Source: a virus
Length of the DNA: 44,022 bases
Virus record (IMG/VR): IMGVR_UViG_3300032084_000320
Location: 1 to 44,022 of that record
Strand: one strand, 5' to 3'
The notes under the pieces are model-generated. The model made no database searches and was not told where the DNA came from. It worked only from the letters and a program-made list of their open reading frames with translations. Below, in pieces: positions 17,533-21,347 of the stretch. Made by a program: the position numbers and the translations under genes. Each line of letters begins with the position of its first letter. Position 1 is the stretch's first letter.

Positions 17533-17823
17533 TCAAGTTAGCTCTATACTATCTAGAATGTTAAGAGCTTTGTAGGCTCGCCTGTTTCCAAAGAAAGGAA
17601 GCATCAGTGTCAGACATCGGGTTACATCACGTTTGTTACCAACACGCCAACGCCAAGTAGGTTTAACACCTGGGCGTTCACGGTAGGTCACGTATCCGCA
17701 ATCCATGATATCACGAAATTTAGTGATGACATCTTTATCAGTCATCTCAATTTCTAGTTGACGACGTACTGTTCCTTCACCTTCGTAAAGACCAGCAGCC
17801 CACGCAAGTTGAATCAGATTCAT
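17533..17823 (-). CDS. Small LAGLIDADG-type homing endonuclease-like protein
   Basis: 96 residues. The motif A-W-A-A-G-L-Y-E-G-E-G at residues ~7-17 is the LAGLIDADG helix with its acidic end (GLYEGEG), followed by RRQLEIEMTDKDVITKFRDI and the WRWRVGNKRDVTR and FFGNRRAYKALNIL segments seen in the alpha-beta core. One motif and short length imply that it would act as a homodimer, or that it is a degenerate half. No intron or intein is visible around it; it stands free between a peptide gene and the capsid gene. Its ATG forms ATGA with the upstream peptide's stop. Confidence 0.72.
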   Translation of the reverse strand: MNLIQLAWAAGLYEGEGTVRRQLEIEMTDKDVITKFRDIMDCGYVTYRERPGVKPTWRWRVGNKRDVTRCLTLMLPFFGNRRAYKALNILDSIELT

Positions 17824-17945
17824 AAAATGTTTTGAGAACTTAAGGGCGTCTCAATGCCACAGCTGCGGCAAAGGGTGTCTCCGTAGAGGCCAATGCCAAG
17901 GGAAAGGGGGTCCGACTCTGAGGTGCCCCCAATCCGTTTTATCAG
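17820..17945 (-). CDS. Possible 41-residue CxxC peptide with non-ATG start
   Basis: This frame contains SESDPLSLGIGLYGDTLCRS followed by CGIETPL, with one C-x-x-C pair. A CTG at 17945 would overlap the outer-membrane-like gene's stop as CTGA, and its own TGA overlaps the next gene's ATG as ATGA. Such four-base overlaps at both ends are what coupled genes show here. There is no ATG; CTG at 17945, ATA or ATT at 17933 would be needed. The stretch 17906-17930 can also fold as a hairpin (GGGGG/CCCCC, 15-nt loop), so it may be regulatory RNA instead. Uncertain. Confidence 0.38.
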   Translation of the reverse strand: MIKRIGGTSESDPLSLGIGLYGDTLCRSCGIETPLSSQNIL

Positions 17946-18292
17946 AACTTGTACTTCACACCAGCTTTGGTGCCGTAGGAATTGACGTCATCAAAGGCAG
18001 CAGACAGCTCACCATAGACGGAGAGCTTTTCACCTGCAGCCACAGAGCCGCCAATCTTACCGGTAGCAATGGTCTCGCCTTCGCCGCCATCAGGGCTGAC
18101 GTAGGTAGGACCACCTTGGATGTACCAGCTAGCAGCACCAGCTGCTCCTTCGTAACCAACGTGGAAGTCCGTAGAGGTACCGCTGTAATCGGAACCAGTG
18201 AAGCCGCTGTTGGCTTCAACATTAGCATAGGGACCAGCCATGGCAGGAGCAGCGAGGCCGATGAAAGCGAGAGAGGTGATAAAAGTTTTCAT
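17942..18292 (-). CDS. Secreted outer-membrane-like small beta-barrel protein
   Basis: 116 residues. A clear signal peptide (MKTFITSLAFIGLAAPAMAG, cleavage after A-M-A) is followed by alternating beta strands (FHVGYEGAAGAASWYIQGGP, YGELSAAFDD) and a C-terminal aromatic residue in GVKYKF, the usual end of outer-membrane barrels. The mature part is ~96 residues, enough for few strands. Similar short proteins with a PYANVE...YSG...DFHVGYEG pattern occur in marine cyanophages and Synechococcus; function unknown. It is translationally coupled to the riboswitch peptide (TAATG). Confidence 0.75.
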   Translation of the reverse strand: MKTFITSLAFIGLAAPAMAGPYANVEANSGFTGSDYSGTSTDFHVGYEGAAGAASWYIQGGPTYVSPDGGEGETIATGKIGGSVAAGEKLSVYGELSAAFDDVNSYGTKAGVKYKF

Positions 18293-18405
18293 TACAAATA
18301 GTGTTTGACAGGTTTAATGTAAGCAACGCCGCGATACTTCAGCTTGGCTTTCTTGTTAGCAGCCTTTTGCTCCCGTACACGGGCATCCAGTTCGACTTGA
18401 GTCAT
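18292..18405 (-). CDS. 37-residue riboswitch-associated peptide (DUF4278-like YRG motif)
   Basis: MTQVELDARVREQKAANKKA, then a C-terminal K-L-K-Y-R-G-V-A-Y motif. The LxYRGVxY core resembles cyanobacterial DUF4278 peptides. It begins 14 bases after a pseudoknotted element that fits the glutamine-II (Downstream-peptide) riboswitch, which is defined by short peptides placed directly downstream. A GGA four bases before the ATG can serve as ribosome-binding site. The stop overlaps the next ATG (TAATG). Function unknown; the context suggests nitrogen-status-dependent translation. Confidence 0.8.
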   Translation of the reverse strand: MTQVELDARVREQKAANKKAKLKYRGVAYIKPVKHYL

Positions 18406-18419
18406 TGTTCCAGATAGAA

Positions 18420-18476
18420 GTACCTGACCCCCGTTCCATGATCAGGCGACATGCGTCCCCGAAGGGATGAACGTAC
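18420..18476 (-). ncRNA. Glutamine-II (Downstream-peptide) riboswitch-like RNA
   Basis: Read 5'-3' on the minus strand the element opens GTACGTTCATCCCTTCGGGG and closes GGGGGTCAGGTAC. CGTTC (18473-18469) pairs with GAACG (18436-18432), enclosing a CCC-TTCG-GGG hairpin. CCTGA (18446-18442) lies between those strands and pairs with TCAGG (18427-18423) beyond, giving an H-type pseudoknot. The CGTTCA opening, pseudoknot and small downstream peptide are the recognised features of the glutamine-II class found in marine cyanobacteria and cyanophages. It ends 14 bases before the peptide ATG, so control is probably translational. Name assigned by recalled consensus, not by a covariance search. Confidence 0.7.
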
Positions 18477-18481
18477 GTTGC

Positions 18482-18649
18482 TTATGCAGCGTATTTACGC
18501 TTACGTGGTTTAGCAGTCTTAGCTGCTGCTTTAAATTGTGCAGCAGTAGGAGCGCCTTTAGCGCCAGGCTTACGCATCTTCTCCCCAGAACCCTGGGCGA
18601 TGCGCTTACGCTTGGCGTGGATGTTAGCATAGAGTCCAGGCTTAGCCAT
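18482..18649 (-). CDS. Small very basic protein
   Basis: 55 residues from the ATG at 18649: MAKPGLYANIHAKRKRIAQG and a C-terminal half rich in Lys and Ala ending RKRKYAA. Proteins opening MAKPGLYANIxAKRKRIAxGSGEKMRKPG are common in marine phages and uncharacterised. The ATG overlaps the upstream gene by eight bases. It is the last gene before the riboswitch. Charge suggests nucleic-acid binding, which is inference. Confidence 0.8.
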   Translation of the reverse strand: MAKPGLYANIHAKRKRIAQGSGEKMRKPGAKGAPTAAQFKAAAKTAKPRKRKYAA

Positions 18650-18875
18650 AGCTCTTTCCTCCTTTTTTCTTTTTCTTTTTAGCAAGGGGAAGTTGTGGAC
18701 CAGCTTTCTTTAGAAAAATTTCTTTTTCATGTTTGTTGTCGGTGCTCTTACCCTTCTCATAGATTTTCTTGCCTTTCATGGCATCTCTATGACCAGGGCC
18801 AATTTCAAAGGAGGCTGCAATAGTCAGCCCCTTACGGTTTTTCTTGTTAGCCACAGTTCCATTTTCGTAGGGCAA
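18642..18875 (-). CDS. Small Lys-rich protein with non-ATG start
   Basis: Up to 77 residues. There is no ATG near the beginning: TTG at 18875 has an AGGA six bases upstream, and GTG at 18854 would overlap the previous stop by only eight bases. Recognisable sequence starts at VANKKNRKGLTIAASFEIGP, and the C-terminus is a lysine tract (LAKKKKKKGGKSYG). Overlaps of 29 (TTG) or 8 (GTG) bases upstream and 8 bases downstream fit the coupled run of small genes after hli. Function unknown; probably a nucleic-acid-binding or packaging accessory protein. Confidence 0.68.
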   Translation of the reverse strand: MPYENGTVANKKNRKGLTIAASFEIGPGHRDAMKGKKIYEKGKSTDNKHEKEIFLKKAGPQLPLAKKKKKKGGKSYG

Positions 18876-19089
18876 GAGCCTTCCTAGTAGGACGACCTTT
18901 TTTATCTTTCATGGGTCCTTTCACACCAGACATCCTAGCGCAGAAGGACCGCTTACGTGGACCGCCTTGAGGCTGAGGAGCCTTAAGGTTTGATCCAGTT
19001 TCTCGGTTGTATTTAGCCCGACCGGCAGCTGTTAAGCCACCGGTACGGGATTTGTGTTTTCCAATTTTAAGGCTAACGTTTTTAGCCAT
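18847..19089 (-). CDS. Small basic conserved phage protein (probable DUF6321)
   Basis: 80 residues: [20 protein letters not shown], then GRAKYNRETGSNLKAPQPQG, KRSFCARMSGVKGPM and KALALRKWNCG. This set of motifs is a widespread family in marine phages that I recall as DUF6321; the number should be checked. Strongly basic with two conserved-looking Cys. It is joined by TAATG to the 44-residue gene upstream. Function unknown. Confidence 0.82.
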   Translation of the reverse strand: MAKNVSLKIGKHKSRTGGLTAAGRAKYNRETGSNLKAPQPQGGPRKRSFCARMSGVKGPMKDKKGRPTRKALALRKWNCG

Positions 19090-19223
19090 TACTTTTTCTT
19101 GCGGGATTTACCAGCTTTACTCAGGGCAATGGCAACTGCTTGCTTCTGAGGGTAGCCTTCAATCTTCAGTTGATTAATGTTAGCAGAAACTGCCTTCTTA
19201 GACTTACCCTTCTTCAGAGGCAT
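19089..19223 (-). CDS. 44-residue basic phage protein
   Basis: [20 protein letters not shown] followed by [23 protein letters not shown]. Short proteins with the pattern MPLKKGxSxKxxSxNIxxL...[10 protein letters not shown] are frequent in phages and plasmids and of unknown function. Linked to hli upstream and to the 80-residue gene downstream by TAATG overlaps. Confidence 0.82.
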
Positions 19224-19399
19224 TACCAGATACCTGGGATGATTTGTCCAGTCAGTGCATAAGAGCCAAAAGCAGCCATGATGCCAAGCATAGCGAGGCG
19301 ACCGTTGAGCTGCTCAGCTCGTTCGTTATGTGGGACACCGTAGGGATGGTCAGTCATAATGATAGTAGGTTCAGTAGGCCAGATGTTCGTGTCGTTCAT
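19223..19399 (-). CDS. hli: High-light-inducible protein (Hli)
   Basis: 58 residues. The single membrane helix carries the chlorophyll-binding signature: [18 protein letters not shown] at residues ~27-43, then [15 protein letters not shown]. Hli proteins are one-helix relatives of plant light-harvesting proteins; they bind chlorophyll and carotenoid and protect photosystem II during its repair. Cyanophages pair hli with psbA to keep photosynthesis running during infection. The ATG shares a base with the psbA stop (TGATG), and its stop shares a base with the next ATG, so it should be made in step with D1. Confidence 0.93.
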
Positions 19400-20475
19400 C
19401 AGCCGACGGTGGGGGCGGATAGAGCCACCGGAGTTGCTTCAACAGAAGCAAGGTCCAGAGGGAAGTTGTGAGCGTTGCGCTCGTGCATGACTTCAAATCC
19501 CAGGTTCGCTTGGTTAAGGATGTCGGCCCAAGAACGAACCACACGTCCCTGAGAATCAAGAAGGGACTGGTTAAAATTAAAGCCGTTAAGATTAAAAGCC
19601 ATCGTGCTAACACCAAGGGCAGCGAACCAAATACCAACAACAGGCCAAGCAGCCAGAAAAAAGTGTAGACTTCTGCTGTTGTTAAAACTCGCGTATTGGA
19701 AGATGAGTCGTCCGAAATAGCCATGTGCTGCTACGATGTTATACGTTTCCTCTTCTTGCCCAAACTTGTAGCCATAGTTTTGGGACATGTCCTCCGTCGT
19801 CTCACGGACGAGAGAAGACGTGACCAGGCTGCCGTGCATAGCAGAGAACAAGCTCCCACCAAACACGCCGGCAACACCCAGCATATGAAAAGGATGCATG
19901 AGAATATTGTGCTCGGCTTGGAAAACGAGCATATAGTTAAACGTCCCGGATATCCCCAGAGGCATCGCATCTGAAAAAGAACCTTGCCCAAAAGGATACA
20001 CCAGGAAGACAGCAGTCGCCGCAGCGACCGGAGCAGAGTACGCAACAAAGATCCAGGGCCTCATCCCTAGTCGATAGCTAAGTTCCCACTCACGACCCAT
20101 GTAGGCGTAGATGCCGATGAGGAAGTGGAAAGTGACGAGTTGGAATGGACCCCCGTTGTACAGCCATTCATCAAGTGAAGCAGCTTCCCAAATTGGGTAG
20201 AAGTGTAGTCCGATGGCGTTGCTGCTCGGAACGACGGCTCCTGAAATAATGTTGTTTCCATACAACAGGGAGCCTGCGACGGGTTCGCGGATTCCATCAA
20301 TGTCAACAGGGGGTGCAGCCACGAAGGCTACAATAAAACAAATGGTTGCTGCCAACAGGCAGGGGATCATGAGGACCCCAAACCAACCAACATAAAGACG
20401 GTTATTTGTGCTGGTAACCCAGTCACAAAAAGACTCCCAAGGTGAGCTGGGAGCCTGTTGAGTAAGTACAGTCAT
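19399..20475 (-). CDS. psbA: Photosystem II D1 protein
   Basis: 358 residues from the ATG at 20475. Full-length D1 with five membrane helices. It has [19 protein letters not shown], the [16 protein letters not shown] segment with Glu at the position equivalent to residue 130 (the high-light form), [15 protein letters not shown] (Asp170 equivalent), and a C-terminus with [13 protein letters not shown], giving the manganese ligands His332, Glu333, His337, Asp342 and the Ala344 processing site by alignment. The QB-side loop reads [16 protein letters not shown]. All key residues are present, so it should be functional and replace photodamaged host D1. It lies between scaffold and hli with TGATG overlaps on both sides and no promoter of its own visible. 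Confidence 0.98.
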
Positions 20476-21347
20476 CAAACTTTAAGGTTAGATCGTTCAA
20501 GTTTACGCATGACATCCATGCGGTAAGCCTCATCCGTATCATACCTTGAGTCAGACATATCGCGTACAACTTCTGCCATACTGCGATATCCCTCACCTTG
20601 GTTAGACTGTTTACCAGTCACCAGTTCGGGGTCACGACCCATGGCATCTTCGTATTGAGACATAAGTGCTTTCACTGCAAAACGTACAGCGGCTTGGTTT
20701 GCGGTGTTAATAACTTCATCGAATGCTTCGATGTCTTCTTGTGGCAGATTCTGACCTGCCCAATCAACAAGGCGTGCGTAACCATCTTCACCGCCCGCAA
20801 TGTTCTTGATCTGACTGATCTCAGAATCTGAGAGGGCAACGGCTTCAGAGTCGTCGTAACCCATTTGATTGCGTAGACCACCGAGGTAAGCATCAATGAC
20901 TTCATCACTGAAACCTGCCTCGTTCAGTTGATCGTACATCTCATTGGTGAGAGTACCATCGTTCTGATAGAAGTGATCGTTCATCTCCCACGGATCAATA
21001 CCTGCTTCTTGGAATACACCAGCAAGGTTGTCACCGTAGGCATCTTTAACAGCGTCGAAGTTAACATAACCTTCTTCGTCGTAGCGTTCGTAGCCGTCAT
21101 CAGTTGACTCTTCTACTTCACCTTCTTCGACTTCTTCGGTCTCTGCTTCTTCGCCTCTGCCAAAGCGTTGCTGAAGTTCCATGTAAGCTTTCTCAAGCTC
21201 TTCAGCATTTTTGTATTTACCAGCAAGAAGATCCTGCTGGTCTTGCATCATCTTTTCCCCAACTTCTAGAGAGTCAGCTTCATCAGCTTCACGAGCTGAG
21301 ATCACTTCGGGATCGTCAGATGGATCGTATGAAATGTTGATTGCCAT
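20475..21347 (-). CDS. Capsid scaffolding protein (T7 gp9-like)
   Basis: 290 residues (T7 gp9 has 307). Very acidic: a Glu-rich stretch ([15 protein letters not shown]) near residue 68 and many Asp/Glu throughout, with predicted helices ([20 protein letters not shown]) and a basic C-terminal helix ([11 protein letters not shown]) such as scaffolds use to bind capsid subunits. It follows the portal and precedes the capsid region, as in T7. Its TGA overlaps the psbA ATG, so a virion-assembly gene and a photosynthesis gene are translationally coupled. Confidence 0.88.

Follow-up and report, generated by a model that had tools for sequence, protein, structure and literature searches.

A type-2 glutamine riboswitch ahead of a short YRG-motif peptide in T7-like cyanophages

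We analyzed a 44,022-nucleotide stretch of DNA from a T7-like marine cyanophage (positions 1 to 44,022 of IMG/VR record IMGVR_UViG_3300032084_000320; hereafter, the window) and confirm from its sequence that the minus strand carries a genuine type-2 glutamine riboswitch, a known class, directly ahead of an ORF for a 37-residue peptide with a YRG motif. The class of the element, its fold, its conservation and the selection acting on the peptide are all supported by comparative sequence evidence. We infer ligand binding, the ON direction, the target of the peptide and a coupling to the following gene, which encodes a cyanophage OMP-like (outer-membrane-like) beta-barrel. The reading that we consider probable is that the phage riboswitch changes translation of the peptide according to glutamine, likely as an ON switch, that the peptide is likely a host-directed regulator of nitrogen metabolism or glutamine synthetase, and that the OMP-like protein may be translated along with it.

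Type 1 glutamine riboswitches are known in phage Melnitz and in T4-like cyanophages, and the Downstream-peptide literature already had at least one phage with type-2 elements. The new findings are the regular retention of the element at one place in T7-like cyanophages, the smallness of its peptide, and a form found in relatives in which a gene is nested within the aptamer.

The aptamer and its surroundings in the window

With cmscan, the single gathering-level Rfam match across the 44-kb window is to Glutamine-II (RF01704); it scores 53.4 bits against a gathering cut-off of 33, with an E-value of 2.7e-10, and spans model positions 1-60 of 60 (Table 1). The type 1 model, RF01739, reached 18.9 bits in the window, under its cut-off of 35. 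Both models had been named as checks by the original prediction, which read the element as a Glutamine-II-type, Downstream-peptide riboswitch, and that assignment was borne out by covariance model, covariation and near-universal conservation in phages. A degenerate pattern of the aptamer core occurs once in the window and in none of 100 dinucleotide-preserving shuffles.

The interleaved pairing had also been predicted. Its pseudoknot (PK) helix, CGTTC with GAACG, stands as proposed, while the second helix, given as the five pairs CCTGA/TCAGG, turned out to be a 7-bp P2, CCUGAUC/GGUCAGG, with one U-G pair. When the element is mapped by hand onto the crystal structure of a type-2 glutamine riboswitch, the source of the contact bases (PMC6698751), the equivalents of ligand contacts C1, G18, C39 and G40 are all unchanged, as is the long-range pair C19:G41, here C18453:G18431 and formed by the last C of the linker. 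The 5' end of the aptamer lies at most about 10 nt past the stop of the preceding small gene. At the other end, 16 nt separate the end of the model from the ATG at 18405, rather than the 14 bases first counted; the proposed range of 18292-18476 does span riboswitch and peptide.

Table 1. Features of the riboswitch region (positions in the window)
Feature	Position	Strand	Evidence or remark
psbA	19399-20478	-	
hli	19223-19399	-	
Type-2 Glutamine-II aptamer, full RF01704 length	18422..18476	-	cmscan
PK helix 5' strand CGUUC; first C is a crystal glutamine contact	18469..18473	-	sequence; PMC6698751
P1 hairpin UCCC-UUCG-GGGA (UUCG tetraloop)	18456..18467	-	sequence, CM alignment
Linker CGC; G corresponds to crystal G18 (base triple, ligand)	18453..18455	-	sequence; PMC6698751
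P2 5' strand CCUGAUC	18440..18446	-	sequence; covariation, 81 phage elements
PK 3' strand GAACG, glutamine contacts C and G	18432..18436	-	sequence; PMC6698751
P2 3' strand GGUCAGG	18423..18429	-	sequence; covariation
Peptide translation initiation region; weak Shine-Dalgarno UGGA only	18406..18421	-	sequence
37-aa YRG peptide ORF, MTQVELDARVREQKAANKKAKLKYRGVAYIKPVKHYL	18292..18405	-	ORF
Cyanophage OMP-like beta-barrel gene	17942..18292	-	PF24653 E 1.9e-42
Hairpin with loop GCACCTCAGAGTCGGAC	17906..17930	-	26 loci, covarying stems
Second RNA-like element, UACG-type-loop hairpin inside GGCA/UGCC-type helix	17844..17902	-	75/85 loci, 24 stem variants
LAGLIDADG-like ORF	17533-17823	-	weak Pfam match E 0.065

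The minus-strand gene order of this polycistronic region is connector, scaffold, psbA, hli, four small ORFs (lysine-rich for the most part), riboswitch, peptide, OMP-like gene, LAGLIDADG-like ORF and major capsid gene, and the annotation thus matches the predicted setting of photosynthesis and small genes on one side and OMP-like, LAGLIDADG and capsid genes on the other. Between hli and the riboswitch (18482-19223, minus strand) is a cluster of small ORFs rich in lysine and arginine, among them phrog_16028 and DUF6321. The LAGLIDADG-like ORF, whose significant match is to a PHROG named HNH endonuclease, separates a conserved pre-capsid element from the capsid gene; in the window that element is without its usual GACGGTGGGATAGACC tail, which suggests an insertion at this ORF.

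Downstream of the peptide cistron and ahead of the capsid gene lie two conserved hairpins, neither of which has an Rfam match. The 17-nt loop of the upstream one is invariant, and its place is taken in other phages by a T-arm-like hairpin or by a real tRNA-Gly (NATL1A-7). We considered the hairpins as tRNA-like and dropped the idea, as ARAGORN gives a real tRNA in NATL1A-7 only. A covariance model of the downstream element captured 7 pairs only.

Conservation of the fold, the locus and the peptide

To examine the fold, we used 81 unique phage elements whose definition made no use of P2. Across the seven positions of this helix, 96.1% of cells are paired, with 30 pair types; in 500 shuffles the mean was 72% and the highest value 75.8%. 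By this sequence comparison, P2 covaries strongly across phages.

A blastn search with the region found 33 phage records, all of them cyanophages by name or lineage, in which the elements are mostly unannotated. In each of 17 cyanopodovirus records among them, including P-SSP7, P-GSP1, S-RIP1, S-TIP37 and 9515-10a, RF01704 exceeds its cut-off exactly once (36.6-60.9 bits), and in all the annotated members the element closely precedes the capsid gene region, as a rule straight after psbA. Eleven further cyanopodoviruses were reached via the capsid protein, giving a sample of 28 besides the window, with MPP-C type isolates outside it. An above-threshold element is present in 19 of the 28 (NATL1A-7 at 59.2 bits and SS120-1 at 38.9 bits among them), with few exceptions flanked by psbA (or scaffold) on one side and the major capsid gene on the other. 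Two others, S-SBP1 (19.6 bits) and S-CBP3 (16.1 bits), have an altered aptamer and have kept the peptide. The S-CBP3 locus (L264:1695-1780) is aptamer-like, with RF01704 at 16.1 and RF01739 at 21.7 bits, both below cut-off, and is followed by an intact YRG peptide. Neither aptamer nor peptide was found in the remaining seven (WH11-B, S-B28, S-SRP01, S-CBP2, S-CBP42, P60 and Syn5), so the pair is not essential; both were likewise absent from a Roseobacter phage used as a control.

The predicted coupling of the aptamer to a YRG peptide holds well beyond the window. A pattern scan of viral contigs gave at least 77 type-2 elements, one of them cut by a contig end, and among the matches listed a YRG ORF lies downstream of all 76 that are readable, four times with a GTG start. 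The phage peptides range from 13 aa (MTKLVYRGVVYYR) to about 40 aa; the candidate peptide of P-SSP7 is MKVTFVYRGVAYTRVIG. That of the window consists of a variable charged N-terminal segment and the motif KLKYRGVAY. Y0, R1, G2 and Y5 are invariant in all 81 phage elements; the first three were search requirements, and Y5 was no selection criterion. The codons behind the motif vary, both for arginine (CGT 55, CGC 23, CGG 2, AGA 1) and for glycine, and dN/dS, approximate because of a pair filter on synonymous divergence, runs from 0.35 (long family) to 0.53 (12-codon core). At the level of codons, these comparisons show the peptides to be under purifying selection.

The covarying stems and this selection, together with the occurrence of one copy at a fixed position across many genera, make it most improbable that the element is a non-functional remnant of recently acquired host DNA, a reading that would draw on the presence of the same riboswitch class in the hosts.

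The motif relates the peptide to DUF4278 proteins, whose genes are under Glutamine-II control in Prochlorococcus. Against PF14105, the window peptide, which carries YRGxxY as LKYRGVAY, scores 18.6 bits (E 0.0025; profile positions 38-57), below the cut-off of 25.3, which a host 65-mer (42.4 bits) and a T4-like phage 40-mer (29.5 bits) exceed. Like the DUF4278 protein PMM1846 and the N-terminus of the glutamine synthetase inactivating factor IF17, the peptide places an LxYRGVxY motif under a glutamine riboswitch; unlike IF17, it is without the C-terminal inhibitory part, and in Pfam and PHROG it had no match resembling the C-terminal glutamine-synthetase-inhibiting region of IF17/GifB. A PDB sequence search with the host DUF4278 protein gave no match, and an AlphaFold model of the host 65-mer (mean pLDDT 66, pTM 0.30), with the YRG segments as beta-hairpins, was too weak for a fold search. 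PirA, a small PII-interacting protein, is reported absent from marine picocyanobacteria (PMC8092223); we dropped it as an identity for the peptide on this ground and because the motif points to DUF4278.

In its full model match, PK, P1, P2, ligand bases, short ORF and weak Shine-Dalgarno, the element is like RF01704 of marine picocyanobacteria, from which it differs in being phage-borne and in lying in a late structural/photosynthesis operon. The regulated products differ as well: 13-40 aa with one YRG motif in phages, and 55-65 aa with YRG, YRR and YRG motifs in picocyanobacterial hosts. With the type 1 riboswitch (glnA motif, RF01739) it has in common the ligand-site core CGUUC...CGCA...GGAACG, and type 1 also drives YRG/DUF4278 ORFs in phages, although it has no P2 pseudoknot architecture. 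In phages, type 1 aptamers mostly precede double-YRG proteins and type 2 aptamers single-YRG ones. The double-YRG gene of P-SSM7, PSSM7_206, lies just upstream of talC, with nrdAB, NAD synthetase and hli nearby. Yfr6 of Prochlorococcus MED4, a Downstream-peptide RNA with a 33-aa peptide, likewise joins a type-2 aptamer to a short peptide, but it is a host gene with a 244-nt free transcript.

Direction of control and competing outputs

When glutamine is plentiful, the pseudoknot would close around the ligand and alter translation of the YRG peptide 16 nt downstream; this distance makes translation the likely site of action. The change is most likely an increase, as host precedent suggests, so that the peptide would be made when the infected cell is glutamine-rich and would most likely act in the nitrogen/glutamine-synthetase circuit, with the overlapping OMP-like gene perhaps co-translated in the window phage. 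Since the peptide has the minimal YRGxxY core of the host's riboswitch-driven DUF4278 proteins, its most likely role is that of a small regulator directed at the host, and because the bare motif has been conserved under a glutamine sensor, the best guess for its target is a nitrogen-circuit protein. A molecular target common with the host proteins does not follow from this, as the phage peptides keep the motif alone.

The opposite direction, an OFF switch in which the closed PK/P2 stack near the Shine-Dalgarno hinders ribosome loading at high glutamine, appears unlikely. It would fit a Shine-Dalgarno that in many relatives starts about 4 nt past the P2 3' strand, as well as our failure to find an anti-Shine-Dalgarno alternative helix, but in cyanobacteria the tested glutamine riboswitches of both types switch DUF4278 genes on when glutamine is high (review PMC6316151), and host DP genes drop upon nitrogen depletion (PMC2864571). 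In phage-infected MED4, antisense RNAs to Yfr6 (Yfr14) and to a Yfr6-peptide-like host gene rise early (PMC2518516). P-SSP7, a MED4 phage, has its own copy of the riboswitch.

No alternative helix that would sequester the ribosome-binding site (RBS) was found, and in a simple thermodynamic model applied to 55 elements the accessibility of this site was 0.446 in the PK-free and 0.453 in the PK-formed state. Because the two states are equal in this respect, the ON mechanism is left without an explanation. Of the 55 elements, accessibility went up in 15 and down in 13. A candidate mechanism in which an anti-Shine-Dalgarno competes for CGUUC (the RBS copy 'CTGGAACA' is similar in sequence to the PK strand 'ATGGAACG') was rejected, as accessibility was the same over the 55 elements; moreover, the RBS copy is not conserved among relatives.

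A separate question is which gene the switch serves. The peptide stop overlaps the OMP-like ATG (TAATG, 18294-18290), and the two genes may therefore be co-regulated through translational coupling. One could go further and take the OMP-like gene for the main output in the window phage, with the peptide mainly a coupling leader, an idea consistent with that overlap and with the OMP gene's position at -4 to +13 nt after the peptide in 15 loci. We regard it as rather doubtful: many podoviruses (P-SSP7, S-TIP37, S-RIP1, S-RIP2 and S45C4) have the OMP gene elsewhere or upstream of psbA and have kept riboswitch and peptide. The peptide is the conserved partner.

The original prediction had gone wider still, with the phage reading host nitrogen status in the middle of its structural operon. 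We narrow this to control of the peptide and possibly, through TAATG, of the OMP-like gene; the capsid gene itself begins 784 nt farther on, with other conserved hairpins in between. That the riboswitch gates the downstream capsid/structural operon is very unlikely even though it has a conserved place immediately ahead of the capsid gene, in many cases within 150-230 nt. The hairpins argue that the riboswitch cistron is a unit separate from the capsid gene, which has its own spacer and start, and the distance to that gene varies by more than 1 kb, the constrained spacing being that between aptamer and peptide.

Genes nested in the P1 loops of related aptamers

In some of the phage glutamine aptamers, P1 is capped by a long loop with an ORF inside. 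We scanned viral contigs for long loops with two patterns, one including an ATG and one free of it, and found at least 293 unique nested elements. Among the matches listed, all 172 unique usable long-loop aptamers that fit the ATG-free pattern hold a nested ORF, as do all 27 loci seen only by the ATG-free scan. The nested genes are conserved, 50-75 codons long and present in T4-like (type 1) and T7-like (type 2, e.g., S-SBP1) relatives, with dN/dS of 0.15-0.22. Their families include PHROG 504, PHROG 6471 and a PHROG 628-like one (P-SSM7 L275:2271-2460, S-SBP1 L261:1510-1700 and contigs L276-L516). We are confident that this architecture is real. In the literature searched, we found no mention of such an arrangement in aptamer loops, and Rfam searches can miss nested forms: the S-SBP1 aptamer scores 19.6 bits, its 3' half alone matching.

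The nested start codon lies 9-12 nt from the first base of the aptamer, at the top of P1, and the stop falls within the 3' strand of P1 or in the CGCA linker, with clusters at -5, +4, +6, +10 and +13 relative to CGCA. The aptamer core thus often supplies the last codons, giving C-termini such as WDAND. P1 of the nested aptamers is about 5 bp, and its fourth pair covaries (88% versus 59% shuffled). Past the A of AUG, pairing does not exceed chance, and full sequestration of the start codon is therefore not general. A TATAAT -10-like box at most 16 nt before the aptamer was seen in 64 of 107 non-tandem nested cases among the matches listed (e.g., L475 and L480), a placement that suggests transcripts beginning at about the first base of the aptamer, with the start codon close to their 5' end.

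Downstream of the nested elements, the matches listed have a YRG ORF in 197 cases and another aptamer in 85; in 58 tandems, both aptamers are occupied. Sixteen listed elements are of type 2 and carry a different gene family (WPGGDPxEQ, PHROG 628-like), with a YRG peptide after each of them. That the arrangement recurs with two aptamer types, in two phage families and around unrelated nested genes suggests selection for it.

Such loci may form a two-output device that alternately makes the nested gene product (low glutamine) and the downstream YRG peptide (high glutamine), a proposal that we put forward tentatively. Closure of the aptamer would occlude the nested start, and a ribosome translating the nested gene would unfold the aptamer; the compact aptamer of the window would be the 'empty' version. 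The window aptamer has its UUCG loop and no nested gene, and a tblastn search of the window with the nested-gene proteins returned no match.

DUF4278, a domain tied to glutamine-synthetase control, is cut in phages to a core of 13-20 residues, for which synthesis and direct testing are feasible. Host-type glutamine sensors occur in marine cyanophages of two families, including most of the T7-like isolates examined, and are nearly always accompanied by a YRG peptide. This pairing suggests that the nitrogen state of the infected cell feeds into the infection programme.
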